Below are positions 34,360 through 48,876 of a stretch of 64,000 bases of DNA, piece after piece. The stretch comes from Rhizobiales bacterium NRL2. GTDB taxonomy: Bacteria; Pseudomonadota; Alphaproteobacteria; Minwuiales; Minwuiaceae. Made by a program: the position numbers and the translations under genes. The DNA lies in NCBI GenBank assembly GCA_001664005.1, contig CP016093.1:3307001-3371000 (forward strand), in the 5' to 3' direction. The first letter of the stretch is position 1, and the number at the start of each line of letters is the position of its first letter. The notes beneath the pieces are model-generated. The model was given only the letters and a program-made list of their open reading frames with translations. It was not told the origin of the DNA and made no database searches.

Positions 34360-34552
34360 GGCGCCGATGCGAGCTTAGAGGCTGCCGGGCGGCCGCCCAA
34401 CAGTCCATTGCCTGTTCCCCGGAACCGGACGTCGCCCGCAATGGTCAGGGCCAATCCGATTTACGCTGAGGCGGGCCACGTGACATCATCGAAAGCGGAT
34501 AGGCGGACTGCCGAGACAAGAGGCTGCAAGGCCCGCAACCAGAGGGACCGAG

Positions 34553-36355
34553 ATGGATTTGGACCAGGCCGCTACAGGCCAGGAGGCCTGGGCGGCGGCG
34601 AAGGCCGAACTGTCCAGAGGGGAAAACCTGCACGCCCACGACCTGGCGGTGCGCGCGCGAGAGAAGTGGCCCGACCATGAGGGCCTGAAACATCTCGCCG
34701 TCCTCGCCCTCGCCCGTTCCGGAGCGGTCGATCTGGCTCGAAGACGGTTCGGCGAATATGGCCTGGACGAAGCCCGGAGCGAGGAGTCGTTCTCTCTGGA
34801 CGCGCGCCTGCACAAGGATCGGGCATTGGCCAATCCGGACCGCCCCGACCACGAAGCGCTCGATCATTCCATCGCGGCCTATGAAAGCGGGTACGAAGTC
34901 GATCGTGGCTATTATCCCGCGATCAATATCGCCACGCTTTCGTTGCTGGCAGGATATGCAGAGAAGGCCCGCTCCTGGGCCACTGCGGCGCTGACCGATG
35001 CCGAGGCAAAACGGGAGCGCGACGGCTACTACGCCGAGGCCACGCGCGCCGAAGCGCTTCTGCTGCTCGACCGGCCCGAGGAGGCGGCGGCCTCGGCGGC
35101 GCAGGCAGCGGCGCTGGCCGGCGCCAATTACGCCGAACGCGCGACAACCTTCCGGCAACTGCAGATGATATGCCGCCACAAGGGGTTGGAAGCGTCCCTG
35201 TTGGAAAGTCTCCGACCGCCACCGGTGATCCATTTCTGTGGCCATATCATCGCCCCTCCCGGCGCCGCCGGGCGGTTCCCCGCCGACCAGGAAGGTGATG
35301 TCCGGGAGGCGCTGCGAGAAGCATTCGCCGCCCTTTCCTGCAGCTACGCGATCGGCAGCCTCGCCGCTGGCGCCGATATCCTGGCGGCAGAGACGGCACT
35401 CGACGCCGGTGTGGCGCTGGATGTGGTCATGCCTTTCGATCGGGACGAGTTCATCGAACTGTCCGTCGCCCCCGCCGGCCGGCGTTGGGTGGCGCGGTTC
35501 GAGCGCTGCTACGCCAGGGCGCACAAGATCCACCATGTCACCAGGGATGCCTATCTGGGTGACGACGAGCTGTTCGGATATGCGTCCGAATATGCGCTCG
35601 GCCTCGCCAGGCTTCGTGCGCAATGGCTCTCCGCGGAGCTGAACCAGATCGCCATCTGGGACGGCAAGCGCGGTTCGGCGGCGGCCGGCACATATCACGA
35701 CCTCGAGCTCGGCCGCCGGGCCGGCTGTTTCCAACATGTCATTCGTGTCCGCCCGGAAACTCCCGCAGCGCCGCCGCCGGCGTTCGCTTCGGAAAGCGCG
35801 GGCGAGCAGCCCGGTCAGCTGAAGCGCACACGGAATACCCTGATCTTCGGCGACCTGAAGGGCTTCAGCAGATTGTCGGACGCCCAGATGCCGTCCTTCG
35901 TGCAACATGTCCTGGGGGCCATCGCGCAGGTTCTCGAAGCGCAAGGCGACCAGCTGATCCTGCAGAATACCTGGGGCGATGGCATCTTCCTGGTATTCAG
36001 GGATCCGGGCAATGCAGCCGCATGCGCCTTTGCGCTGCAGGAAGCCATGGCCGCCATCGACTTCGCGAAAACCGGACTGCCCGACGATCTCGGGCTCCGG
36101 CTGGGCTGCCATTACGGGCCGGTCTATGTGACTCGCGATCCGATCCTGCAACACGACAACTGCTTCGGCTTCCACGTCACCCGCGCCGCCCGCATCGAGC
36201 CGATTACACCCGAAGGCTCCGTCTACGTGACCGAACAGATGGCCGCCGCCCTTGCCCTGTCCTGTCCTGAACAATATCGATCCGACTATGTCGGCCAGCA
36301 GCCGCTCGCGAAGAACTACGGCTCGTTCGGAATGTATCATCTCAATCAGTGTTGA
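34553..36355 (+). CDS. TPR/TRAFs-binding-like, SLOG-like and class III nucleotide cyclase protein
   Basis: This is a 600-residue soluble protein in three parts. Residues 1-215 are helical TPR-like repeats resembling the TRAFs-binding (DUF4071) region. Residues 225-395 form a Rossmann-like segment with GSLAAGADILAAETALDAG and VVMPFDRDEF, the pattern of SLOG-type ligand- or nucleotide-binding domains. Residues 427-598 are a class III cyclase domain: metal ligands Asp434 (FGDLKGFS) and Asp476 (WGDGIFLVF), and transition-state Arg547 in HVTRAAR. The usual Asn of VNxAAR is Thr543. A 3',5'-cyclic nucleotide product is likely; base specificity is unknown. It is divergent from the TIR gene, and their proximity suggests a signal-producer and effector pair. 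Confidence 0.82.
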   Translation: MDLDQAATGQEAWAAAKAELSRGENLHAHDLAVRAREKWPDHEGLKHLAVLALARSGAVDLARRRFGEYGLDEARSEESFSLDARLHKDRALANPDRPDHEALDHSIAAYESGYEVDRGYYPAINIATLSLLAGYAEKARSWATAALTDAEAKRERDGYYAEATRAEALLLLDRPEEAAASAAQAAALAGANYAERATTFRQLQMICRHKGLEASLLESLRPPPVIHFCGHIIAPPGAAGRFPADQEGDVREALREAFAALSCSYAIGSLAAGADILAAETALDAGVALDVVMPFDRDEFIELSVAPAGRRWVARFERCYARAHKIHHVTRDAYLGDDELFGYASEYALGLARLRAQWLSAELNQIAIWDGKRGSAAAGTYHDLELGRRAGCFQHVIRVRPETPAAPPPAFASESAGEQPGQLKRTRNTLIFGDLKGFSRLSDAQMPSFVQHVLGAIAQVLEAQGDQLILQNTWGDGIFLVFRDPGNAAACAFALQEAMAAIDFAKTGLPDDLGLRLGCHYGPVYVTRDPILQHDNCFGFHVTRAARIEPITPEGSVYVTEQMAAALALSCPEQYRSDYVGQQPLAKNYGSFGMYHLNQC

Positions 36356-36412: not shown

Positions 36413-36697
36413 CTATTCCGAAGCCCGGCCACGCCGCAGAAGTTCATCTTCATCCACGATCACTTCAAACTCGATCGCCACCTGATCCGTCGCAGCACCT
36501 TCAAGCAGAGACGTGATGCGGCCATTGCGGGTTGGCGGCAACCGGCAGCCTGAGTCCGTTGAAATCGGTCCTTGGCACGACCAGTCCGCGTCAGTCTGCC
36601 AATGCCTTTCGACGGTATCAAAGGGGAGCAGCTCAGTCTCCGGTGGACCATCCATCACGAGAGCCGCGTGCACAACCGTGTCATTCCGGGCTAGCAT
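36413..36697 (-). CDS. Small hypothetical protein
   Basis: This 94-residue open frame lies in the 386-base gap between the cyclase gene and the acyl-CoA ligase. Its C-terminal half (QVAIEFEVIVDEDELLRRGR) has beta-alpha character and an acidic tract, more protein-like than the antisense frame. Ribosome-binding support is weak (GCGGG before the ATG). No family is recognised. It could be a third small component of the TIR/cyclase locus or a chance open frame. Confidence 0.35.
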   Translation of the reverse strand: MLARNDTVVHAALVMDGPPETELLPFDTVERHWQTDADWSCQGPISTDSGCRLPPTRNGRITSLLEGAATDQVAIEFEVIVDEDELLRRGRASE

Positions 36698-36741
36698 CCC
36701 GCCTGCATCTGCATACCGGGTTGCAAGGGGAGGATACTTGG

Positions 36742-38280
36742 ATGGACATGCGGACCCTGATGGCGCGTTCGGCGCGCTTCTATTCCGACCGGGAGGCGGT
36801 GGTCTGGCGCGACCGGCGGCTGACCTTCGGCGAGGCCTGGAAACGGGGCCTCAGGATGGCGAACGCGCTGCTGGAAATGGGATTGAAGCCCGGCGACCGC
36901 GTCGGCGTCCTGGAGGACAACTCCGTCGAGGCGTCCGACATGTTTCTCGGCGCGGCGGCTGCGAATCTCGTGCGTGTACCGCTCTATCCGCGGAATGCGC
37001 GGGAAGCCCATGTGCACATGCTCTCCCACACCGACTGCCGTGTCCTAGTGGTCTCAGGCAACCATGCCGCGGAGGCCGCCGGGCTGGAGGACGAGGTGCC
37101 GTCGCTGGAACGCGTGCTGATCCGCGACGAGAACTACGAGGACTGGCTGGCGCAGCAGGATGACAGCGATCCGGGCGTGGAGGCAGACGCGGACGACCTT
37201 TTCATCATCCGCCACACCGGCGGCACGACCGGCCTGCCCAAGGGCGTGGCCTACACGCACAGGGCCTGGCTCGCCGCGGGCCGCGACTGGCACTACCTCT
37301 TTCCGCCGATCGTGCCCGGCGACAAATGCCTGCACATCGGGCCGATCAGCCACGCTTCGGGCTATTCCTTCGTGCCCGTCTGGCTCGGCGGCGGCTGCAA
37401 CGTGCTGCTCGATCACTTCGATCCCGGCGACACGCTGGACATCATGGAGCAGGAAGAGATCAGCATCATGTTCGCCGTGCCCACCATGGTGAACATGCTG
37501 GTCCATCATCCCGGCGTCGGCGGGCGGAATTTCCCGAAACTGAAATGCATGCAGATCGGGGCGGCGCCGATCACCGAGACGACCGCGCTCAAGGCCCACG
37601 AGATCTTCGGGCATCGCCTCTGGCAGGTCTACGGGCAGACCGAGGCCGTACCGATCACCGTCATGGGACCGGACCAGTGGTTCGCCAAGGTCGAAGGCTC
37701 CAACCCCCTGCAGGCCTGCGGCATGCCCCTGCCCTTCGCCGACCTCAAGATCTGCGACGGGGACGGCAATGAGGTGCCGCTTGGCGAGGAAGGCGAGCTG
37801 GTCGCCCGGTGCGACGGGCAGATGACCGGATTCTGGAAGGACCCGGAAGCCACCGCCGAACGGATGATCGACGGCTGGGTCCGCACCGGCGACATCGGCC
37901 GGATCGACGAGAACGGTTATGTCTACATGCTGGACCGCGCCGGCGACATGATCGTCTCCGGCGGCTTCAACATCTACCCGGCGGAGATCGAGAACGCCCT
38001 GGCCTCCCATCCCGCGGTGATCGAGGCGGCCGTCTTCGGCATCCCGAGCGAACGCTGGGGCGAGAGCCCGATGGCGATCTGCGTCACCGACGGCAAGACG
38101 CCGGTGACCGAGGAAGAACTGATCCGGCTCTGTGCGGACCGGCTGGGCTCCTACAAACGGCCGGCGAGGATCGAGCTGCAGACCGATCCGCTGCCCCGGT
38201 CGCCGGTCGGCAAGGTGAAGCGAAAGGACCTCCGCGAACCGCACTGGCGCGGCCAGAGCCGGCGGGTCGCCGGCAACTGA
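36742..38280 (+). CDS. AMP-binding acyl-CoA synthetase (fatty-acid--CoA ligase family)
   Basis: This 512-residue adenylate-forming enzyme activates a carboxylic acid to its CoA thioester using ATP. The phosphate loop TGGTTGLPKG is at about 160-170, followed by VYGQTEA, the GWVRTGDIG hinge region with its Asp, and the C-terminal catalytic Lys region GKVKRKDL. Both the large and the small domain are intact. ATG 36742 is chosen because AGGGGAGGA lies 5-9 bases upstream; an open frame from 36532 has no ribosome site and covers the small opposite gene. A terminator follows at 38297, then the tRNA-end repeat of the integrated element. Confidence 0.9.
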   Translation: MDMRTLMARSARFYSDREAVVWRDRRLTFGEAWKRGLRMANALLEMGLKPGDRVGVLEDNSVEASDMFLGAAAANLVRVPLYPRNAREAHVHMLSHTDCRVLVVSGNHAAEAAGLEDEVPSLERVLIRDENYEDWLAQQDDSDPGVEADADDLFIIRHTGGTTGLPKGVAYTHRAWLAAGRDWHYLFPPIVPGDKCLHIGPISHASGYSFVPVWLGGGCNVLLDHFDPGDTLDIMEQEEISIMFAVPTMVNMLVHHPGVGGRNFPKLKCMQIGAAPITETTALKAHEIFGHRLWQVYGQTEAVPITVMGPDQWFAKVEGSNPLQACGMPLPFADLKICDGDGNEVPLGEEGELVARCDGQMTGFWKDPEATAERMIDGWVRTGDIGRIDENGYVYMLDRAGDMIVSGGFNIYPAEIENALASHPAVIEAAVFGIPSERWGESPMAICVTDGKTPVTEEELIRLCADRLGSYKRPARIELQTDPLPRSPVGKVKRKDLREPHWRGQSRRVAGN

Positions 38281-39987
38281 CCGGAAGCAGAAACCGAACG
38301 GGCCGCCCTCGATGAGAGGACGGCCCGTTGGGTACAAGTGGTTGCGGGGGCCCGCAGCCGCGTTTGTTAAAACTTCAGGTCCGGGAGCGCTTTTCTCTTC
38401 GGCAACCAAGCCCAGAATCCCAAGCAACGCGCCGCGTAAAACGGCCGTAAACTCGCCTCTCGCCGCGCCCGGCGTGATCACCACTTCCCCGATCAAAGCA
38501 CGAACATCCGCGGCTGCTTCGGCATGCGTATCGGGGCTCGCCAGCGCATCGGTCAACCGGGCGACCTGCGCGCGGTAAAGTTCAGCGATGTTCGGATGCA
38601 CGTCAGGCACGTCGGCTGGCGTCTCGGACAAGCGTGCCGTGATCTCGGCCTTCTCCCGCTCCAACTCCTCCATCCGTGTTTTCATGGAGGGCTGGTACAT
38701 GCCGTCTTCGATCGCCCGCATAATGCCCTGGATCGCACGGTCGATCTTCTCGAGGGCCTGACGGTCGACCTCCCCCTGGGCACGGCGCTCCTGGTTCTGC
38801 CGGTTGGTCTGCTCGACATAGGCGCGCACTGCCCGGGCCACGGCATCGGCCGAAACGAGCTTGTCCTGCAGGCCCGCCAGAGCCCGTCGCTCGATCACCT
38901 GCCGGGCCACCGTGCGGTTGTTGTCGCACGTGCTGCGCCGGTAGTGGTTCAGGCAGCCATAGCGATCACGCGCGATGATCCCGTATTTCCCGCCGCAGCA
39001 GCCACAAGTCAGCAGGCCGGACAACAGGAAGGCTGGCCGACGCAAGCTATGGATGCGCTTCGCCCGCGCCTCCCGCACTCCGATGGTGGTTGACTCGAAC
39101 TGCTTCGCAAGCTCGGCCTGCCGGTCTTTCGCTGCGCGCCAGAGCGCGTCATCCACGATGCGCAGCTCCGGGACATTCGTCCTGATCCATTCGGTTTCGG
39201 GGTTCGGCCGCGAGACACGCCGGCCGGTGCTCGGATCCTTGACGTAGCGTTGACGGTTCCAGACGAGTACGCCGACGTAGAGCTCGTTGTTGAGAATGCC
39301 GGTTCCGCGGGAGACATGACCGCGGATCGTCGTATCTCCCCAGGCGCGGCCGAGCGGACCGGGAACGCCCTCATGATTCAGGTCGGCCGCGATCGCCCGT
39401 GGGCTCCGTCCGGCCGCAAATTCGCGGAAGATGCGCCGGACGATCCGTGCTTCGGCCTCGTTGATCGCACGCTCGCCGCGGAGCGGCTCGCCCTCGCCGT
39501 TCGTGCGCTTGACAACGTCATAGCCGTAGCAGAGTCCCCCACCCGCCTTGCCCTTCTCGACGCGCCCCTGGAGACCGCGATGGGTCTTGGCCGCGAGATC
39601 CTTCAAAAAAAGCGCGTTCATCGTGCCTTTCAGTCCGACATGCAGCTCGGAGATGTCCCCCTCGGCCAGCGTGACGATCTGCACGCCGGCGAAGCGCAGA
39701 TGCTTGAACAAGGTCGCGATATCGGCCTGGTCGCGGGAGATGCGGTCGAGCGCCTCGGCCAGCACGATGTCGAACTTCCTCTGGCGGGCGTCTTGCAGGA
39801 GCGCCTGAATGCCCGGCCGCAAGGTCACGCTGGCACCCGAGATGGCCGGATCCTGGTAGGTGTCTACGACGCGCCACTTCTCGCGTACGGCGTGGTCGCG
39901 GCAAACGCGGAGCTGATCATCAATCGAGGCAACGCTCTGATTGTCGGAGGAGTAGCGGGCGTAGAGCGCAACCTTGATCATCGTCAT
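37054..39987 (-). CDS. Large serine recombinase (integrase of the element) whose frame runs on past the attachment site
   Basis: This is the integrase of the conjugative element. The N-terminal resolvase domain starts VALYARYSSDNQ, with the first Ser after YARY as nucleophile, and continues with DRISRD. The recombinase domain is at about 160-300, a zinc ribbon follows (CGCCGG and YGCLNHYRRSTCDNN), and then a long coiled coil (EKIDRAIQGIMRAIEDG). Conserved sequence stops near residue 545, where the frame reaches the tRNA-end repeat at 38339-38352. It then stays open for another 430 codons antisense to the acyl-CoA ligase, down to 37054. The extra tail is almost certainly an accident of the insertion site. 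ATG 39987 has AAGGGG just upstream. Confidence 0.8.
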   Translation of the reverse strand: MTMIKVALYARYSSDNQSVASIDDQLRVCRDHAVREKWRVVDTYQDPAISGASVTLRPGIQALLQDARQRKFDIVLAEALDRISRDQADIATLFKHLRFAGVQIVTLAEGDISELHVGLKGTMNALFLKDLAAKTHRGLQGRVEKGKAGGGLCYGYDVVKRTNGEGEPLRGERAINEAEARIVRRIFREFAAGRSPRAIAADLNHEGVPGPLGRAWGDTTIRGHVSRGTGILNNELYVGVLVWNRQRYVKDPSTGRRVSRPNPETEWIRTNVPELRIVDDALWRAAKDRQAELAKQFESTTIGVREARAKRIHSLRRPAFLLSGLLTCGCCGGKYGIIARDRYGCLNHYRRSTCDNNRTVARQVIERRALAGLQDKLVSADAVARAVRAYVEQTNRQNQERRAQGEVDRQALEKIDRAIQGIMRAIEDGMYQPSMKTRMEELEREKAEITARLSETPADVPDVHPNIAELYRAQVARLTDALASPDTHAEAAADVRALIGEVVITPGAARGEFTAVLRGALLGILGLVAEEKSAPGPEVLTNAAAGPRNHLYPTGRPLIEGGPFGFCFRSVAGDPPALAAPVRFAEVLSLHLADRRPGQRIGLQLDPRRPFVGAQPVRTEPDQFFLGHRRLAVGDADRHRALAPAFARDAEDGRLDHRGMGGQGVLDLRRVDVEAAGDDHVAGAVQHVDITVLVDPADVAGADPAVDHPFGGGFRVLPESGHLPVAPGDQLAFLAKRHLIAVPVADLEVGEGQGHAAGLQGVGAFDLGEPLVRSHDGDRYGLGLPVDLPEAMPEDLVGLERGRLGDRRRPDLHAFQFREIPPADAGMMDQHVHHGGHGEHDADLFLLHDVQRVAGIEVIEQHVAAAAEPDGHEGIARSVADRPDVQAFVAGHDRRKEVVPVAARGEPGPVRVGHALGQAGRAAGVADDEKVVRVCLHARIAVILLRQPVLVVLVADQHAFQRRHLVLQPGGLRGMVA
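38297..38329 (+). terminator. Terminator hairpin of the acyl-CoA synthetase gene
   Basis: Perfect nine-base arms AACGGGCCG and CGGCCCGTT flank inner CCCTC and AGAGGA around the loop GATG, 17 bases after the ligase stop. No T-run follows, but the stem is strong. It ends 10 bases before the tRNA-end repeat, so it belongs to the original chromosome or inner island. Confidence 0.65.
38339..38352 (-). repeat. Left attachment site of the conjugative element (tRNA-fMet 3'-end core)
   Basis: TGGTTGCGGGGGCC matches the complement of the 3' end of an initiator tRNA-Met gene over 13 to 14 bases, in the same orientation as the copy at 29060. It lies where the recombinase frame loses conservation. By the usual logic of tRNA-targeting elements, the intact tRNA gene should be at the other end of the element, beyond the right edge of the window. 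Confidence 0.6.
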
Positions 39988-39996
39988 CAATCCCCT

Positions 39997-40422
39997 TTAT
40001 CGGCGGACGCCGCTGCTCCGGCGCTGCTCGCTCAATTCCAGGAACTTCTCCTTAACCTGCCCGAAAAGGCGCGGTGGGATGAAGCCGTAACTGAACACGT
40101 CAGGACGGCCGGGTAACGGAGCGAGGCCGCCGTTCGGCCATTCATCCACGTTGTACTCCGATACGATCACCCAACTCGGCGCATCGTCCAGCCCGAGCAC
40201 CTGCTTCACCCTCGCCGGGATCTCGATGCTGACCGTGTCATTGTCCGGCGGCGAGTGCGTGATCGGCAGAATGACCACGAACCGCGGGCGCAGGCTGGAG
40301 TCGCTCGCTGCCACCAGGCAAGCCGGACGCTCCTTTCCCTGATCGCGGCCGGCGGCGGCCTCATGGGACCAGAGATAGTCGTAGCGGATCACCAGACCCG
40401 GTTTCGGCTCCGGGAGAGCCAC
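39997..40422 (-). CDS. PemK/MazF-like growth-inhibitor toxin
   Basis: This 141-residue protein is of the type II PemK-like plasmid maintenance toxin group, whose members are usually ribosome-dependent or free mRNA endoribonucleases. The barrel pattern begins LVIRYDYLWSHEA and continues with GKERPACLVAAS and FVVILPITHSPP; the Arg-Pro and Ser/Thr positions match the MazF active-site region. It lies 10 bases downstream of the Phd-like antitoxin gene and 10 bases upstream of the recombinase gene. It probably stabilises the element. Confidence 0.78.
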   Translation of the reverse strand: MALPEPKPGLVIRYDYLWSHEAAAGRDQGKERPACLVAASDSSLRPRFVVILPITHSPPDNDTVSIEIPARVKQVLGLDDAPSWVIVSEYNVDEWPNGGLAPLPGRPDVFSYGFIPPRLFGQVKEKFLELSEQRRSSGVRR

Positions 40423-40432
40423 CGGCCCCGCC

Positions 40433-40687
40433 TCACTTCATGAGGTCGTCCAGCGGCGCATGCTCCGGGTCCATCTCGGCCCGGCGCACGGCGTCCACGA
40501 CAACCTCTGGCGCCTCCGTCGTCCGGCCGGTCCGGCGCGCCGCCGCCACCAGCCAGTCATAGTGGTCGGCCGACATCAGGACCAGTTCGCGCCGGCCATG
40601 GCGGGTGATCTCGACCGGCTCCCGCTGGGCCTGATGCTGGAACTCGCCAAACTTGCGCTGAAATTCCATCGCCGTGGTTCGAGCCAT
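40433..40687 (-). CDS. Phd/YefM-like antitoxin
   Basis: This 84-residue protein has an N-terminal DNA-binding half of the Phd type (AMEFQRKFGEFQHQAQREPVEITRHGR, shown as the pattern F..KFGE..HQA then PVEITRHGR) and VLMSADHYDWL. A more disordered acidic C-terminus (AEMDPEHAPLDDLMK) would wrap the toxin. The ATG at 40687 starts the domain; the frame is open further upstream through the preceding small gene and is rejected. A TTGACA hexamer (complement at 40744-40749) may be the -35 of its promoter. Confidence 0.78.
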   Translation of the reverse strand: MARTTAMEFQRKFGEFQHQAQREPVEITRHGRRELVLMSADHYDWLVAAARRTGRTTEAPEVVVDAVRRAEMDPEHAPLDDLMK

Positions 40688-40775
40688 AATATCCTCAGCG
40701 TGCAACATTCTAACCATCTGTATTCTCCGTATAATGCGAGGATTGTCAAGTCTGATGGGCTCAAGGCCGTCCATG

Positions 40776-40955
40776 TCACTCATCGCGCGGCTCGTTGTCA
40801 TTGACCGGAGGCGGATGCTTGGCATGCTCTCGCGCCAGATGCCGGCCGATCGCCTCGGCGATGCGGCCGATGCGAGGATCGAGGGGCTCGCCACCCGCCC
40901 GACCGTTGTCATTGGCGGGCACCCTGGGCTCCGACTGGCGATCGCTCCTCGTCAT
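40776..40955 (-). CDS. Small conserved ICE protein of 59 residues
   Basis: This short gene reads MTRSDRQSEPRVPANDNG at the start and ends VNDNEPRDE, with the core LDPRIGRIAEAIGRHLAREHA, an amphipathic helix. Two PANDN/VNDN motifs flank the helix. The type of sequence is familiar from small genes next to recombinases in alphaproteobacterial ICEs, but the function is unknown. It is preceded by a 65-base repeat 46 bases upstream, as is traG. It would be the first gene of a leftward unit with antitoxin, toxin and recombinase. Confidence 0.6.
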   Translation of the reverse strand: MTRSDRQSEPRVPANDNGRAGGEPLDPRIGRIAEAIGRHLAREHAKHPPPVNDNEPRDE

Positions 40956-41001
40956 GGCGCATCCCTTCCAAGGGGGAACCGATTGACCAGTTCACCCAAG
41001 T

Positions 41002-41066
41002 AGAGATTCACCAGAGTGGCAGAATCTAAAATCGCCTTTATGCGCGCCCTCTTACGCGCTCTTCGG
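41002..41066 (-). repeat. Copy 1 of a 65-bp repeat upstream of the leftward recombinase/TA unit
   Basis: This aligns without gaps to 57494-57558 with 49 of 65 identical positions. The best conserved part contains a dyad AGATTC-N12-GAATCT and an ATAAA(G/T)GCGATTTT block (minus strand). It ends 46 bases before the start codon of the 59-residue gene. It is probably a promoter/operator region. The adjoining stretch to 41138 holds no gene. Confidence 0.5.
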
Positions 41067-41138
41067 ATGATTCTTCGAAGAGCGGGCTGGAGCGTATAAG
41101 AACGCACTGAAGCCAAGAGAAGAACGGGCCTAGCCCAT

Positions 41139-41921
41139 TCAACGACGCTTCTCTTGGGTGTACTCCTCGAAGCTCGAAAAAGACCGTCGCCCTTTGGAGG
41201 CGTTCAACTTGGCAAGACGCGTCTTCATGATCCGCCCTTGGAGATACGCGCACAGATCGGCGAAATCCTCCATTGAAAGCAATTTCCACTGCGATCCGAA
41301 CTTGTGTTCGATGTTCTTAGAAATCGCCCCGTAGCTGAACTTGGTTGCGCGGGTCGGCTCCTTGGATGCGAACTCGTTGTAACGGTTGATCAAGTGCTGA
41401 ATGTAACGGCTGGTATTTTGATCGGCCCCAATCGTACCCGCAGCAGGGTGGATGGTAACGGCTCGGCGGGACGCCTTCAGACTGACGGTGCTCCCCACGA
41501 TGGCACCCGGGCTGTCAACCACGACGTTCCCGCTGTTGTTGTTGACTTCGACGCGCCGCATCGCATTCAGTAAAATCTTGGCATAGAAGGCATCGTTCGG
41601 TTGCTCGGGTCGGCCCAGCCGCGCCGCCTGGATGGCTTTGATTTCCTGTAGCGCCTCGACGGAGTACACGTCCGGTTCTGCGTCGACGACCTTGTGATGC
41701 CGCCGACAGAGCAGGATCAGATTGTCGAAGGCATGCCGTTCCGCCTCCGACTGCGTCTCATCGAACCGCGGGCCGCCTCTGCTTTGCGCGCGGATATGGC
41801 AAACTTCTCCGGTAATCGTCCCTGCGTCTTCGACGATAGGCGACGGGCAATCGGGAAACGCGCATACGTTTCCGGACAGCGCAAACAGTCTTCGTATCGT
41901 CTTTTCCGAAGGTCCCGACAA
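41139..41921 (-). CDS. HNH endonuclease domain protein
   Basis: This 260-residue protein has its N-terminal 85 residues forming a zinc-bearing HNH module: Cys20 and Cys25 (GNVCAFPDC), then GEVCHIRAQSRGGPRFD with the His, and NLILLCRRHHKVVD. Residues 115-160 form a Ser/Val-rich beta segment, and the helical C-terminus (SRYIQHLINRYNEFAS onward) is unassigned and may recognise the target. It starts 27 bases after the DUF6035 gene, in one leftward operon. A defensive nuclease role is suggested by the context of the cargo pocket. Confidence 0.8.
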   Translation of the reverse strand: MSGPSEKTIRRLFALSGNVCAFPDCPSPIVEDAGTITGEVCHIRAQSRGGPRFDETQSEAERHAFDNLILLCRRHHKVVDAEPDVYSVEALQEIKAIQAARLGRPEQPNDAFYAKILLNAMRRVEVNNNSGNVVVDSPGAIVGSTVSLKASRRAVTIHPAAGTIGADQNTSRYIQHLINRYNEFASKEPTRATKFSYGAISKNIEHKFGSQWKLLSMEDFADLCAYLQGRIMKTRLAKLNASKGRRSFSSFEEYTQEKRR

Positions 41922-41948
41922 ATGCCCCTCCCGAACCCATTCAAGTGA

Positions 41949-43262
41949 TCAAGTGTATTGATCCGAAGCTATACTACTACTGTTGTGCCGTGGTCCCGTC
42001 CGTCGCGATGGGAACATGTCCGGAAAAAGCCCAAGGGCGATGCGACCGATGATACTCTGTGGATCGTCCTGACGGACGGCGAGCGCCGTTGCCAACTTCG
42101 CTTGAACGCTTCGGGCCTTCAGCGCTTCACTACGACCGGCAAGCTCGGCAAACCGACGCACGAGGCGCGCGTAGCGATGCCGTCGGCCGGCATAGAAGAA
42201 GGTATTCAGCACTTCGACCAGGTTCTTCTGCTGAGAGCCGACCGGATGACCGTCCAGCAGCGAAAGCAGGCAGTTTATCAGGGAATCGATGTCGGCCTCT
42301 TCGAGCGCGTAACTATCGGTGTCGCCGAGAGACAGCTTGGTGACGAGCTCGGCGAGAAGCGTTTCACGCTCCGGCCATCGCGTACCGTGGTCGCCAGTGG
42401 CGGCTCGCCATCGGGTGAGAAAATCTTCATGCCAGGGCGGCGCCGGCGCGACGGCAAAAGCGCGGCCACTCGGGAGCCAGTACAGCTCGGACAGTCTGAC
42501 GAGCTTGGACATCCACACATGATCGCGCGTCCAGAATGCGCGAAGAACTACCTCGCCTTCTTGCCGGGAGAGGCGGACCGTCTCGTCATCCATCGCGAAC
42601 AGGTTTTTGTTGTGCGAATAGAATATGTCCTCGAAGGAGCTGAGCAGGCGGCCATCCACGGGCGGCGGCTCGAAATTCCACGTCAGCCACAGAAGCCGAT
42701 AGGCCTGGCTGTCATAGAAATCCTCGCGCTGGATGATGATCGGGATCTGCGTCGTCGCGAGCTGGACCTCCACGACGATCGGCGAGCCGTCGTAGACGGC
42801 ACGCACATCGGGGCGCCGACGGCCACTGTCGGTGACAAGATATTCGTCAACGATCACGCTGCCCGGTCTGGTGCGGGCATCCGCGTTCAGCAACTCCCCG
42901 ACAATGTTCTTGATCTTCGCGTGGAGCGGGCTCTCTTGAGCGCCGTCGAACTGCCGGCCACTGATGCCATCCACGTCAGACGGCACCCCTGTCCACCATG
43001 GGCAGTCCTCGGGGGCGCCGGGATGATGCTTCCAATATGGGAGGCCGGTACGCGGCTCGCGCGGCGCATAAACCGCGTGCCCGCATAGACCACACGCATA
43101 GCGCGGCCGATGATCGAGCCGGGCCCTGGTCGCCAGTCTGCGGATGACTTGATAGTCATCCTTATGCATGCCCATCAAGTCTTCACTGGAGATGGACTGC
43201 ATGGTCTCCAGATCGACAGCTTGTTTCAGCGTTCTTCTGAATCGCCGTTCCGCCATAGCCAC
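41949..43262 (-). CDS. DUF6035-like PD-(D/E)xK nuclease family protein with CoiA-like zinc region
   Basis: This is a 437-residue protein. A zinc-binding start (CGLCGHAVY at 57-65, YWKHHPGAPEDCPWW near 77-90) precedes a nuclease-like core: SPLHAKIK with His114, Asp152 in RRPDVRAVYDG and Glu165-x-Gln167 in VVEVQL. Thus D-(x)n-E-x-Q replaces the common ExK, as in CoiA-type proteins. The C-terminal half is helical and unassigned. It is the first gene of the leftward nuclease pair; 241 bases separate it from the divergent AbiE operators. Confidence 0.72.
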   Translation of the reverse strand: MAMAERRFRRTLKQAVDLETMQSISSEDLMGMHKDDYQVIRRLATRARLDHRPRYACGLCGHAVYAPREPRTGLPYWKHHPGAPEDCPWWTGVPSDVDGISGRQFDGAQESPLHAKIKNIVGELLNADARTRPGSVIVDEYLVTDSGRRRPDVRAVYDGSPIVVEVQLATTQIPIIIQREDFYDSQAYRLLWLTWNFEPPPVDGRLLSSFEDIFYSHNKNLFAMDDETVRLSRQEGEVVLRAFWTRDHVWMSKLVRLSELYWLPSGRAFAVAPAPPWHEDFLTRWRAATGDHGTRWPERETLLAELVTKLSLGDTDSYALEEADIDSLINCLLSLLDGHPVGSQQKNLVEVLNTFFYAGRRHRYARLVRRFAELAGRSEALKARSVQAKLATALAVRQDDPQSIIGRIALGLFPDMFPSRRTGPRHNSSSIASDQYT

Positions 43263-43503
43263 GAACAGTCTCGATCAGTTCTCGCTCTCTGGCATGGAGC
43301 GACCGGCATCATATCGGGGAATCCATTCTATGAGGATTTGTATCGCAGAGGGCTGGGAGGGCCGGCCCTCTCGATACCCCTGCGTTGCCGCGACGCTCCG
43401 GCGCTTGGTACCCCGCGCTGGGCGGTGCAGAACTCGGGGCCATTGATCCATGACTGTCGGCGCATGTTCCGCCTTCAGAAGTACCTTGAACCTCGACCAT
43501 TTT

Positions 43504-43530
43504 GTCCGAAGAATGTCGCATTCTTCGGAC
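43504..43530. promoter_or_regulatory. AbiE operator 1 (perfect inverted repeat)
   Basis: Arms GTCCGAAGAATG and CATTCTTCGGAC pair perfectly around TCG. This is the upstream one of two similar repeats whose centres are 39 bases apart, before the AbiEi antitoxin. Type IV AbiEi antitoxins are known to repress their own operon by binding inverted repeats. Confidence 0.75.
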
Positions 43531-43542
43531 TCTCTTGCATCT

Positions 43543-43569
43543 GTCCGAAAAATGTATCATATTTCGGAC
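43543..43569. promoter_or_regulatory. AbiE operator 2 (inverted repeat abutting the start codon)
   Basis: Arms GTCCGAAAAATG and CATATTTCGGAC flank TAT, with one mismatch relative to a perfect dyad. The outer GTCCGAA/TTCGGAC is the same as in operator 1. It ends at the base before ATG 43570. A TTGCAT (43535-43540) and TCATAT or CATATT could form the promoter, which would put transcription start at or near the ATG. Confidence 0.7.
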
Positions 43570-44238
43570 ATGCCTTCCATGACGCGAAAGAGCGACCTCC
43601 GCTCCCGGTTGCTCGACCGGATTGAATCCAACCCCGATCAGGTCTGGACACCCGGCGACTTCGCCGACCTCGGCAGCCGCGCCGCTATAGACAAGACCCT
43701 GCAGCGCCTCGCGTCCGCCGGCGAACTGCGCCGAATCGACCGAGGCCTCTACGACAAGCCGCGTAAGAACGAGCTGACCGGTCGCCCGACCGTCCCGGAC
43801 TATCGCGCCGTCATCCGCGCCGTCGCCCGCCGCGACAAAGCGCGTACCGTCATCGACGGTATGACCGCCGCCAATGATCTTGGACTCACCACCGCCGTGC
43901 CGGCCCGGATCGAAGTGCTCGTGGATGCGCGCCTGAAACCGATCAAGCTCGGCAGTCAGGAGATCCATTTCAAGTTCGCCGCGCCCAGCCGCCTCTACTG
44001 GGCCGATCGGCCTGCCGTGCGCGTTGTCCAGGCGCTACACTGGATGCAGGACATGCTGGACCAGGATAGCGAGCGTCGGCGCGTCCGGACCGTGTTGCGC
44101 CGCCTCTTCGCCGACCCTCGACATGGCCAAGCGATCCGCGACGATCTGCGGGCCGGCCTCTCCGCCTTGCCGATCTGGATGCAGGAGTTCCTGCGCGGGC
44201 TGCTGGACCCAGCCGAGACGGACGAGGCACGGCAATGA
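43570..44238 (+). CDS. abiEi: AbiEi-like antitoxin (DUF6088 family)
   Basis: This is the antitoxin and transcriptional repressor of a type IV toxin-antitoxin pair, about 222 residues. The N-terminal winged helix-turn-helix reads WTPGDFADLGSRAAIDKTL then LRRIDRGLYDKP; the C-terminal domain (LGLTTAVPARIEVLVDAR, IHFKFAAPSRLYW) is the usual AbiEi antitoxin part. ATG 43570 abuts operator 2; ATG 43579 is an alternative start. The longer frame from 43450 would translate both operators and is rejected. It overlaps the toxin gene by 4 bases. Confidence 0.85.
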   Translation: MPSMTRKSDLRSRLLDRIESNPDQVWTPGDFADLGSRAAIDKTLQRLASAGELRRIDRGLYDKPRKNELTGRPTVPDYRAVIRAVARRDKARTVIDGMTAANDLGLTTAVPARIEVLVDARLKPIKLGSQEIHFKFAAPSRLYWADRPAVRVVQALHWMQDMLDQDSERRRVRTVLRRLFADPRHGQAIRDDLRAGLSALPIWMQEFLRGLLDPAETDEARQ

Positions 44239-45278
44239 CCTCCGCGGCCTTCAAACAGATCATCACTGCAGCGCCGCGTGACCGGCTCGACCTGTTTCTC
44301 GCTACCGCCAATCGGCTCAGCGCGCCAGTCGGCAATGTCGAAAAAGACTTCTGGGTCTGCTGGACGCTGAACGCGCTCTATCATGAACGACCGGCTGACG
44401 GACCACGGCTCCTGTTCAAGGGCGGCACCTCGCTGTCGAAAGCCTATGGCCTGATCCGGCGTTTTTCCGAAGACATCGACGTTACCGTTTTTCGCGACGA
44501 CCTGGACGAGACGGCATCGGTCGAGGAACTTGAGGCCCTGTCGAACAAGAAGCGTCGGGCCAGACTGGATGCAATCCGGGACGCATGCCGGGCTTACATC
44601 ACCGACCCGCTCCGGGAATTCCTCAGCGCCCAACTCGCCGACGCCACCGGCGGCGCCGGCCATATTGAGATCGACGAAGCCGATCCGGACGGCCAGACAT
44701 TGCTCGTCTGGTATCCCGAGGTCGAGCCGCGCGATGATGCCTATGTCCGACCAGCCGTGCGAATCGAATCCGGCGCAAAATCGGCTCTCGATCCCAACCG
44801 CCCCGTCACGGTCCGGCCTTATATCAGTGAGGAAACCGAAGGGTTGGACCTGACGATTGCCAGCGTGACCACCATCGAAGCGACCCGTACCTTCTGGGAC
44901 AAGGTCGTGATCGCCCATGGGCTACGCCGCTGGCACGAACGGCGCGGCGTCCTCCGCCAGGAAGGCCAACGTGTATCGCGGCATTATTACGACCTCCATT
45001 GCCTGCTGGACTCGGAGGTCGGAAAAACGGCACTCGCGGACCGCGACCTCGGTGCCGACTGCGTGCGCCATGCACGCATGTTTTTCAACCGTCCCGATTT
45101 TGATCTCGCAAACGCGGTTCCCGGCACATTCGCAATCGCCCCCACTACCGGGATGATTGACGCCCTCCGCCGCGACTACGCGAACACCACCGCCATGATC
45201 TTTGGAGCGGCTCCCGAATTCGAGAAGATTCTGGCATCCGCCAAGAAGATCGAGCAGGTTCTAAATGATGGAGCTTAG
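44235..45278 (+). CDS. abiEii: AbiEii nucleotidyltransferase toxin
   Basis: This 347-residue toxin is of the DNA polymerase beta-like nucleotidyltransferase fold. The motif GGTSLSK (63-69) followed by Asp80-x-Asp82 in FSEDIDVTVF is the GSx(n)DxD active site of AbiEii, whose relatives block growth by modifying tRNA with pyrimidines. A further conserved block VEKDFWVCW lies at 35-43. The pair provides phage resistance and stabilises the element. It is convergent with DUF736, 38 bases apart. Confidence 0.87.
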   Translation: MTSAAFKQIITAAPRDRLDLFLATANRLSAPVGNVEKDFWVCWTLNALYHERPADGPRLLFKGGTSLSKAYGLIRRFSEDIDVTVFRDDLDETASVEELEALSNKKRRARLDAIRDACRAYITDPLREFLSAQLADATGGAGHIEIDEADPDGQTLLVWYPEVEPRDDAYVRPAVRIESGAKSALDPNRPVTVRPYISEETEGLDLTIASVTTIEATRTFWDKVVIAHGLRRWHERRGVLRQEGQRVSRHYYDLHCLLDSEVGKTALADRDLGADCVRHARMFFNRPDFDLANAVPGTFAIAPTTGMIDALRRDYANTTAMIFGAAPEFEKILASAKKIEQVLNDGA

Positions 45279-45316
45279 CCGAAAATCGCGACATCGCCTG
45301 TATCGCGCGACCGAAA

Positions 45317-45637
45317 TCATTCGAGCCGCCGTCGCGTCCATACGAGCTGGGCCATCCCACCGTCAGCGGCCTCAAACATGGCCGCAGAGATCGGTTCCAC
45401 CATACTCGGATCGTCCAGGCGAACGCTGAGATAGTCCCGCGGGTTTTCTCCGCTCGTGCGCTCGCGCCAGGCAGCCCCGAGTTCCGAGCGCCCGGCGAAC
45501 ACCCGGAAGTCCGGTGCCCGGTCGTTGTCGCGGTTGTCGTTGGGGACGAACCGCGCCTTCACGTCGATGGTGAGTGTGCGGATGGTCCCGGTCCAACCGC
45601 CGTCCTTGGTGGGCGTAAATGTCCCGATGATCGACAT
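45317..45637 (-). CDS. DUF736 protein
   Basis: This 106-residue protein starts IGTFTPTKDGGWTGTIRTLT, the DUF736 signature, and contains DFRVFAGRSELGAAW and YLSVRLDDP. It is a small beta-rich protein common next to trb genes in ICEs of alphaproteobacteria; its role in transfer is not known. Last backbone gene of the leftward transfer operon before the AbiE cargo. GGAAGGAGG lies just before the ATG. Confidence 0.9.
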   Translation of the reverse strand: MSIIGTFTPTKDGGWTGTIRTLTIDVKARFVPNDNRDNDRAPDFRVFAGRSELGAAWRERTSGENPRDYLSVRLDDPSMVEPISAAMFEAADGGMAQLVWTRRRLE

Positions 45638-45661
45638 GGCTTTGCCTCCTTCCGTTAACGG

Positions 45662-45895
45662 TTAGCCGCGCTTCGGGGACGAGCGCTCTCGTCGCGCCTT
45701 CGCAAATCCGCGGTCGGCGGCGAGGAAGCTCTCCAGCATGTAGGGGATGAGCTCGGCGACGGGCTCCGCCTCGCCATAGGTCTCGCGGTAGAGCTCGGCA
45801 TAGGCCTGGAGCGCCTTGTTCAGCTCGGGCGTGACCGTGACGGTGATCTTGACCGGCGTCCGGTCGGGGAGCTTGGACAGCTTCAGGTCGGGCAT
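45662..45895 (-). CDS. DUF2274 protein
   Basis: This 77-residue protein begins MPDLKLSKLPDRTPVKITV and continues TPELNKALQAYAELYRETYG, a ribbon-helix-helix-like pattern typical of DUF2274, found after trbI in many ICEs. It may bind DNA and regulate the transfer genes. Spacing to trbI is 16 bases, so it is in the same operon. Confidence 0.88.
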   Translation of the reverse strand: MPDLKLSKLPDRTPVKITVTVTPELNKALQAYAELYRETYGEAEPVAELIPYMLESFLAADRGFAKARRERSSPKRG

Positions 45896-45911
45896 GGCTC
45901 TATTTCCTCCG

Positions 45912-47165
45912 TCAGCCGCGATAGGGTCTCAGCACCAGGTCCTTGTGGACGATGACACGCAGCGGCCAGCCAGGCCGGACGGTGATGGTCGGCTGGATGT
46001 TGAGGTTGCGCTCGGTGATGCGCTGGCCGGCGCGGTTGGCGTCGCGCTGGGCGGACTCGCGGATCGCCCGGAGGAGATCGCCTTCCTCCCCGCCGAAGGT
46101 CAGCTCGGTGCCGACGCCCAGCAGCGTCGAGAGCGCCACGCCGGCGACCAGCCGCCAGGTGTGGTAGTCGACCTCGTCCTCGAGCCCGGCATAGCCCGCG
46201 GTGTCGGTCGCCGGCAGGTTCTCGATCACGACCGAGGAGCCGTCCGGCATAACGATCCGGTTCCAGATCACCAGCGCCCGGCTCTGGCCGAAGGCGACGA
46301 CACTGTCGTACTTACCGATCAGGCGCGCGCCCTGCGGGATCAGGAGATGCCGGCCGGTCGGCGTGTCGTAGACGTTACCGGTGACCTGGGCGATAACCAG
46401 TCCCGGCAGGTCGGAGTTGATGCCTGTAACGAGGCTCGCCGGGATCGCCGTGCCGGCCATCACCACGTAGGGCGAGATGAGATCCTGTAACGGATGCGGG
46501 TTGTAGACGGCGTCGTCGACACGCTGCTCCAGGAAGTCGAGCTTGCGGCCCTGATGGTTCTGGTCGCGAGTCGGGTCGAGCGCGAGGCGGTTGCCGGCAT
46601 CCGAATCTACGGTCGAGCGATCGGTACCCTGCCCCGCTGCCGGGTTCGTCGTTGTATCGTCAGCTCCCTGCCGTGCGGAGATCTGAAAGAACACTTCCGA
46701 CTCGCGTGCCTTCCGCGCCTGCTGCGCGAGACGCAGGCGTTCGGCCCGGGCGGCATCGGCTTCCGGGTCGGGGCGGAACGCCGTGCCCGCACCCCCCGGC
46801 GGGACCACGCCGAGGTTGCGCTCCATGTCGACCACGGGCGGCCCGACGTCGCCGGGTAGCGGCGGTCCGAGTGCGGGCGCCGACTTCGGCATGTCCCCAT
46901 AATCACGGGGCAGCTCGGCCAAACCTTCGGCGGTCGGCTTGTTCTGGGTGCTGTAGAGTTCGTCGCCGCGCCGGTCCTCGCGGAACGTCGGCGGGTCGAG
47001 CGCGACCAGTGTCGCGCCGAGAATCGCCGCCGAGCCGAGTGCCGCACCCGCAATCAGGACCTTGCGGTTGAAGCGCGTGACGGGCCGCGGCCGGGCTCGC
47101 AGCGTCAAGCTCTCCGGGTCGGTCTTCGGCGGGTTGCCGCCCGGTTCGGCCTGGTCCGACATCAC
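45912..47165 (-). CDS. trbI: Type IV secretion protein TrbI (VirB10-like)
   Basis: This 417-residue component spans both membranes in the channel core. One N-terminal helix (about 32-50, RKVLIAGAALGSAAILGATL) precedes a Pro-rich periplasmic linker; the C-terminal TrbI/VirB10 domain carries PLQDLISPYVVMAGTAIPA, RLIGKYDSVVAFGQ and a WNRIVMPDGSS block. It overlaps trbG by 4 bases. Confidence 0.93.
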   Translation of the reverse strand: MMSDQAEPGGNPPKTDPESLTLRARPRPVTRFNRKVLIAGAALGSAAILGATLVALDPPTFREDRRGDELYSTQNKPTAEGLAELPRDYGDMPKSAPALGPPLPGDVGPPVVDMERNLGVVPPGGAGTAFRPDPEADAARAERLRLAQQARKARESEVFFQISARQGADDTTTNPAAGQGTDRSTVDSDAGNRLALDPTRDQNHQGRKLDFLEQRVDDAVYNPHPLQDLISPYVVMAGTAIPASLVTGINSDLPGLVIAQVTGNVYDTPTGRHLLIPQGARLIGKYDSVVAFGQSRALVIWNRIVMPDGSSVVIENLPATDTAGYAGLEDEVDYHTWRLVAGVALSTLLGVGTELTFGGEEGDLLRAIRESAQRDANRAGQRITERNLNIQPTITVRPGWPLRVIVHKDLVLRPYRG

Positions 47166-48181
47166 CGGACCTCCGTCTCGTCCCGCGCCGGCGCCGCGTT
47201 CACCTGGCGCCCGTCCGTGCGATTGATCCGGACCACCTGTTGCGGATCCTCGCCGAGGCGAAGCTCGGCCGCGGCGAACAGGCGGTCGACGATGTAGTAG
47301 TTGCCGCGTACCCGGTAGTTGACGAGCTCCGCCCCGCCCTCGGGGCCGACCACGAACAGTGGCGGCGCCTCGCCCTGGTCGATGCGCCGGGGGAACTCGA
47401 TGTAGACCTTATAGGTGTCGTCGAACGCCCGCAGCGGTCGCCACGGCGGATTGTCGCCGGTGATCTCATAGCGGAAGCGCAGGCGATCGAGCGCGAGATC
47501 CTGCGCGACACTCTGCGTCTCGTTCGCCCGCTCGTTCTGCCGGCGGAGGGTGACGAGCTCTTCCTGCGGATAGTGCCAGGAGACCGAGGCCATGTAGGTC
47601 TCCTCGGTGCTCTCCAACTCCAGGTGATAGGCGCGCCGGTCAGTGGTGATGACGAGGTTGGTCCGCAGGTCCGGCGCCACCGGCTTCACCAGCACATGGA
47701 CCTGCTGCCGCTCACCGGTGCCGCTGGTGGTATCGCCCACCACCCAGCGCACCGTGTCGCCGGCCGAGACCGCGACCAGCTCCTCACCCGGCTGCAGCGC
47801 AATGTCGCTCACCTGCTCCGGCGACGCATAGAGGCGGTAGAGCGCGCCCTTCGTGAAGGGGTAGACTTGGATTGCGTTGATATAGCCGTCCTCGGTCGGC
47901 TCCAGGCGCGCGGCATCGTTCGCGTCGTCGACCCGATCCTTCGGCGGCCTCTTGTCGGGCGAGGCCGGCTCGTCCTTCGGCGCCGGCTTGAGCTGACCGG
48001 GCAGCGGCAACGGTTCGGGCACCGCGACGATCTCAACCGGCTTCGGCGGCTCGGGCTCGACGGCGGCAGACGCAAAATCGCCGGTATCGTAGGTGATCTC
48101 CGGGGGCGGCGTGCCCTTGGCGGCACAGGCAGCGAGCGCCAGCGCCGACACGCCGCAGAGCAGGATGCGAACAGGAGTCAT
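47162..48181 (-). CDS. trbG: Type IV secretion protein TrbG (VirB9-like)
   Basis: This 339-residue outer-membrane-associated protein. The start at 48181 gives a lipoprotein signal sequence with lipobox LAAC (ILLCGVSALALAAC). A Pro-rich spacer precedes the VirB9/TrbG domain with VYPFTKGALYRLYASPEQV and PGEELVAVSAGDTVRW. The longer upstream frame is rejected because it overlaps trbF and lacks the signal. It overlaps its neighbours by 4 bases each. Confidence 0.92.
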   Translation of the reverse strand: MTPVRILLCGVSALALAACAAKGTPPPEITYDTGDFASAAVEPEPPKPVEIVAVPEPLPLPGQLKPAPKDEPASPDKRPPKDRVDDANDAARLEPTEDGYINAIQVYPFTKGALYRLYASPEQVSDIALQPGEELVAVSAGDTVRWVVGDTTSGTGERQQVHVLVKPVAPDLRTNLVITTDRRAYHLELESTEETYMASVSWHYPQEELVTLRRQNERANETQSVAQDLALDRLRFRYEITGDNPPWRPLRAFDDTYKVYIEFPRRIDQGEAPPLFVVGPEGGAELVNYRVRGNYYIVDRLFAAAELRLGEDPQQVVRINRTDGRQVNAAPARDETEVR

Positions 48182-48873: not shown

Positions 48874-48876
48874 GGC

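Follow-up and report, generated by a model that had tools for sequence, protein, structure and literature searches.

The DNA analysed here is a stretch of 64,000 nucleotides from Rhizobiales bacterium NRL2 (contig CP016093.1, positions 3,307,001 to 3,371,000; hereafter the window), in which a gene for a DUF6035 protein (P0002) is followed by a gene for an HNH protein (P0001). The two adjacent genes raise the question of whether a pair of nuclease-like proteins forms one dedicated defence system or two independent ones. An earlier reading made from the letters alone (the sequence-only reading) had described them as a two-gene unit in one operon beside an AbiE pair, and had proposed a search for conserved pairs. 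Our best explanation, which we hold tentatively and which falls just short of an even chance, is that the unit consists of two separable nuclease modules carried as defence cargo of an integrative conjugative element (ICE), and that the second is a portable accessory nuclease; both activities are predicted. The modules are called separable because either gene occurs without the other.

The two genes lie 27 bases apart on the minus strand, as had been noted. The HNH gene starts with TTG, and GGGAGGGG, which resembles a ribosome-binding site (RBS), stands just 5' of this start. The same layout is present in a Xanthobacter pair, with a 24-nt spacer, GGGAG and a TTG start. Judging from the N-termini of homologues, the DUF6035 gene probably starts with ATG at 43256 rather than with GTG, and the two genes are probably co-transcribed as one operon. 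Using the NG86 method, the ratio of nonsynonymous to synonymous rates (dN/dS) between the window and the Xanthobacter locus L036, for which dS is near saturation, was about 0.15 for the DUF6035 gene and about 0.08 for the HNH gene, and it was about 0.22-0.27 for three close pairs of HNH genes. Both genes look to be under constraint, with signs of purifying selection. The genome of the window holds one match each for P0002 and P0001.

To follow the pair, homologous loci (L-numbers) were retrieved from other genomes (G-numbers). A scan of species genomes with five full-length HNH members gave 119 relatives, and among the best 80 of 119, which were examined, 39 were full-length (227 or more of the 260 residues matched). 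These 39 loci were merged by hand into 27 contexts by pooling near-identical neighbourhoods: L025 into L024, L037 into L036, L063 and L066 into L041, L044 into L043, L050-L052 into L048, and L033, L035, L038 and L045 into L032, with L055, L007 and L113 being one contig region. Two loci were kept in the counts although the HNH frame of L047 no longer follows the family beyond about residue 180 and the match in L059 is broken up. The DUF6035 gene is directly upstream of the HNH gene in two of the 27 contexts, namely the window's own element (L024/L025, 27 nt) and Xanthobacter (L036/L037, 24 nt), and is nearby in two more (in L027 it is one gene away, and in L030 it lies 168 nt downstream). In the other 23 it was not found within the retrieved flanks, some of which end at contig ends. 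Starting from the DUF6035 side, none of 18 loci (14 plasmid regions and 4 from genomes, with flanks of 1.4-10.5 kb) gave a match to the HNH or C-terminal-domain profile. The expectation of a conserved pair is thus borne out in two related ICEs, and loosely in L027 and L030, but fails elsewhere.

Particularly, the relatives of the window's own genes point to separability. The HNH relatives in L026 and L028 are 75% and 74% identical to P0001 and have no DUF6035 match in their loci. The DUF6035 protein of L109, 55% identical to that of the window, is encoded between trbB and traG without an HNH gene, and in L037 the DUF6035-HNH unit, plus a few further genes, is present between the same trbB and traG genes; the elements are related ICEs. 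In the window's element, the unit is placed at the opposite end of the trb genes. The two genes have diverged to a similar extent between the window and L036 (69% and 63-64% identity). We infer that this ICE family saw the pair form on at least one occasion and that the window's and the Xanthobacter elements inherited it as a unit, yet it is an optional combination. An obligate DUF6035-HNH pair was rejected as the main reading, since most occurrences of either gene lack the other.

What the sequence-only reading called an HNH protein is indeed one, and the label is too modest: P0001 belongs to a distinct family that combines a Cap5-type HNH domain with its own C-terminal domain and is found behind several known defence systems. 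The match to Pfam HNH_2 (17 bits) is under the curated cut-off of 21, and the HNH domain is supported by PADLOC models, solved Cap5 sequences and the predicted fold. In PADLOC, three HNH-bearing models matched P0001, which are PDC-M68A (E 3e-28), a CBASS effector (E 4e-21) and SduA (E 9e-19). Profile matches to solved structures include 9om4 (E 4e-25), whose title gives only 'HNH endonuclease', and the Cap5 entry 7rwm (E 4e-16). When the AlphaFold2 (AF2) model, which has high confidence over residues 1-121, was compared with known structures, the HNH domain aligned with Cap5 9dih in VIA-align with Z 13.3 and a root-mean-square deviation (rmsd) of 2.1 over 103 residues, and by Foldseek it matched at E 7e-5. 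All 35 rows of the alignment (P0001 and 34 homologues) share C20, H42, N67, C72, H75 and D80, and H76 and C25 are kept in 34 of 35. H42 aligns with His56 of Pseudomonas Cap5 (PsCap5), the residue mutated in entry 9nlg according to its title. P0001 is modelled as a Cap5-type HNH domain, a flexible linker and a helical C-terminal domain of its own, with predicted nuclease activity.

The C-terminal domain is a rare one, present in 2 of 398 genomes of the phylum (own genome counted). No Pfam family is common to the C-terminal domains of the members, which gave only single-member matches (E 0.045-0.091). Structure 8qe9 was considered as a relative of this domain (VIA-align Z 6.7, rmsd 2.2, 66 residues) and was set aside, its score being within the range of unrelated helical domains. 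Fusions of this domain to conventional HNH domains were seen in L107 (6449-7207) and L108 (5741-6436), and the L107 fusion gene lies 534 nt downstream of an MmeI-like gene, to be compared with the Cap5-type HNH gene behind an MmeI-like gene in L055. As a query, P0001 gave matches in 11 of 289 genomes, counting HNH-only and C-terminus-only matches.

The genes beside the HNH family include those of several defence systems. Neighbours were named with Pfam and PADLOC on chosen proteins and by similarity to those for the rest, which covers a subset of the neighbours. In L043, the HNH gene lies 33 nt behind a series of JetA, JetB, JetC and JetD (PADLOC E 4e-105, 7e-67, 0 and 4e-134); JetC and JetD precede it in L041, L063 and L066, and a JetD fragment in L044. 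IetA (E 4.5e-69) and IetS (E 2.5e-28) precede it in L020, as do IetA and IetS, by similarity, in L048, L050, L051 and L052, and in L026 an IetA-like gene and an S8 peptidase gene lie farther upstream. An MmeI-like protein gene (weak Pfam matches, just below or at the cut-off) overlaps the HNH gene by 4 nt in L055. Other neighbours are QatC-like open reading frames (ORFs) in L057, a Ppl-like ATPase upstream in L030 (where DUF6035 is downstream), AbiEi and AbiEii in L034, AbiEi and an AbiEii fragment in L029, a Mokosh-like protein in L059, and a HATPase gene with a DNA methyltransferase gene downstream in L056. Partners without an assignable family are encoded in the contexts of L018/L031 (289 aa), L026-L028 (121 aa) and L047 (358 aa). 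In 14 of the 27 contexts, an ORF on the same strand comes to its end 60 nt or less before the HNH gene, and in 4 of 27 such an ORF begins 60 nt or less behind it; L034 was counted as not tight, the AbiEii gene that ends 102 nt upstream being absent from the gene models used. In the tree of HNH proteins, the window protein falls into one group with L036/L037, L026-L028 and L047, the Wadjet-linked and the sphingomonad IetAS-linked proteins each form a supported clade of their own, and the MmeI-linked L055 and L107 group with L108. The tree shows that partners differ between branches.

Two further observations were made on this family. The 358-aa protein of L047 (6898-7974), encoded 14 nt upstream of the HNH gene, has no Pfam match and contains by eye an E...EFDVV...QCK stretch of restriction-endonuclease-like appearance, so this locus may hold another nuclease-HNH pair. 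In L032, L033, L035, L038, L045 and L019, a partnerless HNH copy is followed by a conserved 154-aa gene in one shared context, with cation-diffusion and multicopper-oxidase genes nearby (annotated in L019); the hosts are Nitratireductor, Oricola, Stappia and a bin labelled Phycisphaerae.

The motifs of P0002, the first protein of the unit, agree with the zinc-bearing PD-(D/E)xQ protein of the sequence-only reading. Both DUF6035 (E 5e-12, 46.5 bits against a curated cut-off of 22.6) and CoiA_nuc (E 7e-5, 23.4 bits against 20.3) are matched above the cut-off, and P151, D152, E165 and Q167, together with the probable zinc ligands C57, C60, H79 and C87, are all invariant in two overlapping five-row alignments (A2 and A4). 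There was no PADLOC match. In Foldseek, the model of P0002 gave a best E of 0.017 and no match at E 0.001 or below; a second look with VIA-align gave Can2 as the best row (Z 9.6, rmsd 3.3, 128 residues), and the other rows, including Card1 and Hjc, have Z below 8 and are mostly PD-(D/E)xK nucleases. The predicted secondary structure and these rows are compatible with a PD-(D/E)xK fold. P0002 appears to be a CoiA-like protein with a probable zinc knuckle, a putative nuclease core with an intact PD-ExQ signature, and a helical C-terminus, and its nuclease activity is predicted. According to PMC1189080, PD-EXQ is the CoiA variant of the motif and is present in BglII too, and CoiA has been implicated in DNA uptake and recombination.

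DUF6035 is rare. The Pfam model matched in 3 of 385 genomes of the class, P0002 as a query matched in 5 of 289 genomes, and there was no DUF6035 match in the three same-genus genomes G082, G197 and G656. A match was present in 33 plasmid records, 14 of which are among the 18 DUF6035 loci described above. In 9 of 12 further plasmid regions, DUF6035 is within 4.5 kb of restriction-modification (RM), SbcCD, AbiE, SIR2 or AbiJ-type genes. On three plasmids (L120, L127 and L129) a recurrent arrangement was seen in which DUF6035 follows a WYL-type gene (annotated as hypothetical in L129) with SbcC/SbcD-type genes divergent. In L111 (4045-7163) and L112 (1422-4492), DUF6035 is the third gene after those of a 335/341-aa protein and a 252-aa protein; the latter is nucleotidyltransferase-like by eye and has no Pfam match.

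For the two separable modules that we favour, the following mechanism can be proposed. The DUF6035 protein would recognise or cut incoming or abnormal (damaged) DNA, and its company in the plasmid regions points the same way. The HNH protein would be restrained by its C-terminal domain, which stands where Cap5 has the cyclic-dinucleotide-sensing SAVED domain, and either the same lesion or the upstream system would activate it, so that DNA is degraded in a second, perhaps cell-killing, step. By sharing a promoter with the upstream gene, the HNH gene may profit from operons whose expression or arming comes with infection, and no fixed partner would be needed. It is conceivable, if unlikely, that the whole HNH family consists of plug-in nucleases which attach to unrelated immune systems through the C-terminal domain and the last-gene position. 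With similarly low confidence, the hosts of such plug-ins would be Wadjet, IetAS, MmeI-like, Qat-like, Ppl-like and DUF6035 systems, to each of which the same DNA-degrading output would be added.

Several points weigh against our explanation. No defence, toxin-antitoxin (TA), RM or DUF6035 neighbour was named in 11 of the 27 HNH contexts, where only part of the neighbours was scanned (L028, L031, the L032 group, L039, L040, L042, L046, L049, L053, L058 and L064), and the context of the L032 group is near metal-handling genes. Three of the 14 tight upstream ORFs are shorter than 150 aa (L029, L053 and L058) and are maybe fragments or non-genes. The linkage to defence genes can be explained by general clustering in defence islands, the counts being without a control gene family. 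On the HNH tree, 12 partner labels require 12 changes, close to the floor of 11, and the tree was for this reason discarded as proof of frequent partner swapping. G162 has relatives of DUF6035 and of the HNH domain on different contigs, unlinked. The AF2 model of P0002, built on 5 sequences, is weak (mean confidence (pLDDT) 65), and is better across residues 110-270. As a whole, the neighbourhoods do not settle by sequence whether the HNH gene is accessory or stand-alone.

The latter alternative, that the HNH gene encodes a stand-alone nuclease, defensive or selfish, and is placed behind expressed operons, with the upstream systems including DUF6035 irrelevant to it, is unlikely in our judgement but deserves the most attention. 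It accommodates the diversity of the neighbours, the copies without a recognised partner (L019/L032 group) and the excess of close genes upstream over downstream (14 against 4), and the SduA match to the HNH part of P0001 recalls Shedu, a one-gene defence system. The Wadjet- and IetAS-linked clades, and the grouping of the MmeI-linked L055 and L107 with L108, suggest lasting partnership instead, although common descent of the whole locus explains partner-linked clades too. If the two genes were a dedicated two-component system, with DUF6035 as sensor or first nuclease and HNH as its obligate partner, one would expect the tight 27- and 24-nt spacing in two related ICEs, the like divergence of both genes, and the presence of DUF6035 near HNH in L027 and L030 although both genes are rare. 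However, the 0 of 18 DUF6035 loci with an HNH relative in the flanks, the close HNH relatives without DUF6035 in L026 and L028, and the DUF6035 without HNH in the same ICE slot of L109 speak against it, and we regard such a system as rather improbable. Least probable is that DUF6035 serves the ICE itself, for instance by processing incoming single strands or by aiding establishment in the way of CoiA in transformation, with HNH as unrelated cargo. The part played by CoiA in uptake and recombination and the location of DUF6035 within or next to the trb/tra genes of L109, L037 and the window are in line with this idea; the RM, SbcCD, AbiE, SIR2 or AbiJ-type neighbours on plasmids, and the listing of the CoiA domain among the domains of experimentally found anti-phage systems of E. 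coli in PMC9519451, are not.

Parts of the unit can be compared with known systems. P0001 has the same type of HNH domain as Cap5, the HNH-SAVED effector of CBASS, and H42 corresponds to PsCap5 His56. However, it has about 140 residues after the HNH domain and no SAVED domain, whereas solved Cap5 chains have 384-388 aa, and its matches to HNH-SAVED profiles and chains do not extend beyond residue 135 of 260. The scanned neighbours (DUF6035 upstream, a phd-like gene downstream) include no CD-NTase, the divergent AbiEii being a nucleotidyltransferase of another family. CBASS membership was rejected because both SAVED (by sequence and length) and CD-NTase are lacking. In Cap5, binding of a cyclic dinucleotide by SAVED turns on DNA degradation, according to PMC8568899. 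The PADLOC candidate PDC-M68A is matched strongly, but only within the HNH domain (residues 6-97); in PMC12409356, the label PDC is discarded with labels that are non-defence, not verified or unpublished. P0002 resembles CoiA (PF06054) and the CoiA-domain defence protein of E. coli in its PD-EXQ nuclease core, its CoiA_nuc match and the defence precedent, and differs from them as a member of the DUF6035 subfamily with a longer helical C-terminus, an HNH gene behind it and no PADLOC match. Wadjet (JetABCD) is described as four genes and IetAS as two; the HNH gene, which is the next gene in L043 and L020, is extra to these gene sets. The 10 window proteins scanned around the pair (36413-47165) include neither a methyltransferase nor a helicase, in agreement with the sequence-only reading, and the unit differs in this from type II RM systems, which have a cognate methyltransferase.

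In open-access full texts, DUF6035 appears in one paper, as a passing mention of a gene that was not followed up there. Among the titles and openings of abstracts listed, no paper was about such an HNH gene with Wadjet or IetAS operons or in defence islands; the search did not extend to a 2024 preprint by Payne and others on antiviral genes embedded in immune systems, cited in PMC13092281 and PMC12409356, in which the family may already be named. The main text of the DefensePredictor paper (PMC13092281) has no CoiA, DUF6035 or Wadjet, and has HNH twice, for other things.

The surroundings of the unit are read as a Trb-type ICE with the unit as defence-type cargo in its TA-rich part (Table 1). 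The AbiE pair is beside the unit as the sequence-only reading had it, but it is on the opposite strand, divergent from DUF6035 and outside the operon. Beyond it follow a DUF736 gene and then TrbI and other conjugation genes. AbiE was also considered as an obligate third component and was not retained: it is near HNH in the window, L029, L034, L047 and L054, but its sides and strands vary, as for island company. The two palindromes are possibly the AbiEi operator and could also touch the divergent DUF6035 promoter. On the other side, the HNH gene is followed on its own strand, after 226 nt, by a Phd/YefM-like gene and then by a weak PemK match below the cut-off. Window positions 38339-49921 are 99.7% identical to a Parvibaculum indicum contig (11,583 bases) and positions 38339-49696 are 99.6% identical to a Rhodobiaceae metagenome-assembled genome (MAG; 11,358 bases), in both cases to the end of the retrieved locus. 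A search of 50,697 phage records gave no match to the C-terminal domain at E 0.01, and pattern-based scans of viral contigs, which are best at close relatives, confirmed no relative for P0001 or P0002; a phage origin was rejected on this basis. Elsewhere in the window, a 1319-aa protein (30400-34359, minus strand) with a TIR_2 match (E 1e-23), weak beta-propeller matches and TIR-type PADLOC matches adjoins a 631-aa protein (34445-36340) without a Pfam match, and its gene is a candidate defence gene without assignment to a system.

Table 1 Positions in the window of the two-gene unit, its parts and the surrounding element.
Feature	Position	Strand	Basis and remarks
DUF6035/CoiA-type protein gene (P0002)	41949..43262	-	437 aa from GTG; Pfam DUF6035 and CoiA_nuc
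Probable zinc ligands C57, C60, H79, C87	43002..43094	-	Invariant in alignments A2 and A4; zinc binding putative
Putative PD-(D/E)xK-type nuclease core, residues ~109-262	42477..42938	-	AF2 model and VIA-align
Predicted catalytic D152, E165, Q167 (PD-ExQ)	42762..42809	-	Invariant in alignments
27-nt spacer with GGGAGGGG, RBS-like, before TTG start	41922..41948	-	Sequence inspection
HNH nuclease-family protein gene (P0001)	41139..41921	-	260 aa; second of two-gene unit; PADLOC HNH-bearing models
Cap5-type HNH domain, residues 1-106	41604..41921	-	VIA-align to Cap5 9dih
Low-confidence linker, residues 123-156	41454..41555	-	pLDDT < 50
C-terminal helical domain, residues ~160-259	41145..41444	-	AF2 pLDDT ~80
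Two near-perfect 27-28 nt palindromes (GTCCGAA...TTCGGAC)	43503..43570	.	Repeat search; between DUF6035 and AbiEi, just before AbiEi start
AbiEi-like antitoxin, divergent neighbour	43450..44238	+	Likely start 43570 or 43579; PADLOC AbiEi E 3e-100; Pfam DUF6088 E 1e-27
AbiEii-like nucleotidyltransferase toxin, neighbour	44235..45278	+	Pfam AbiEii E 2e-39; PADLOC E 4e-102
Large serine recombinase, opposite side of cargo	37054..39990	-	Pfam Resolvase and Recombinase
TrbI	45912..47165	-	Pfam
TrbE-like	50930-53404		Pfam
TrbB-like	53993-54973		Pfam
TraG-like	55399-57447		Pfam
Relaxase-like	60104-62083		Pfam; with trb/tra genes marks conjugation region

In conclusion, the window illustrates that adjacent nuclease genes in an ICE are not necessarily one system. 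It also links to ICE-borne cargo the CoiA/DUF6035 family, which had been known from transformation and a single phage-defence screen. If the HNH family is a portable add-on, Wadjet and IetAS would have an optional terminal nuclease that is unlisted by core-gene detection models, and a single C-terminal domain would offer a way into how the same effector is coupled to various sensors. If the plug-in reading is true, the family would serve prokaryotic immunity as an accessory effector of general use, independent of any single alarm signal.

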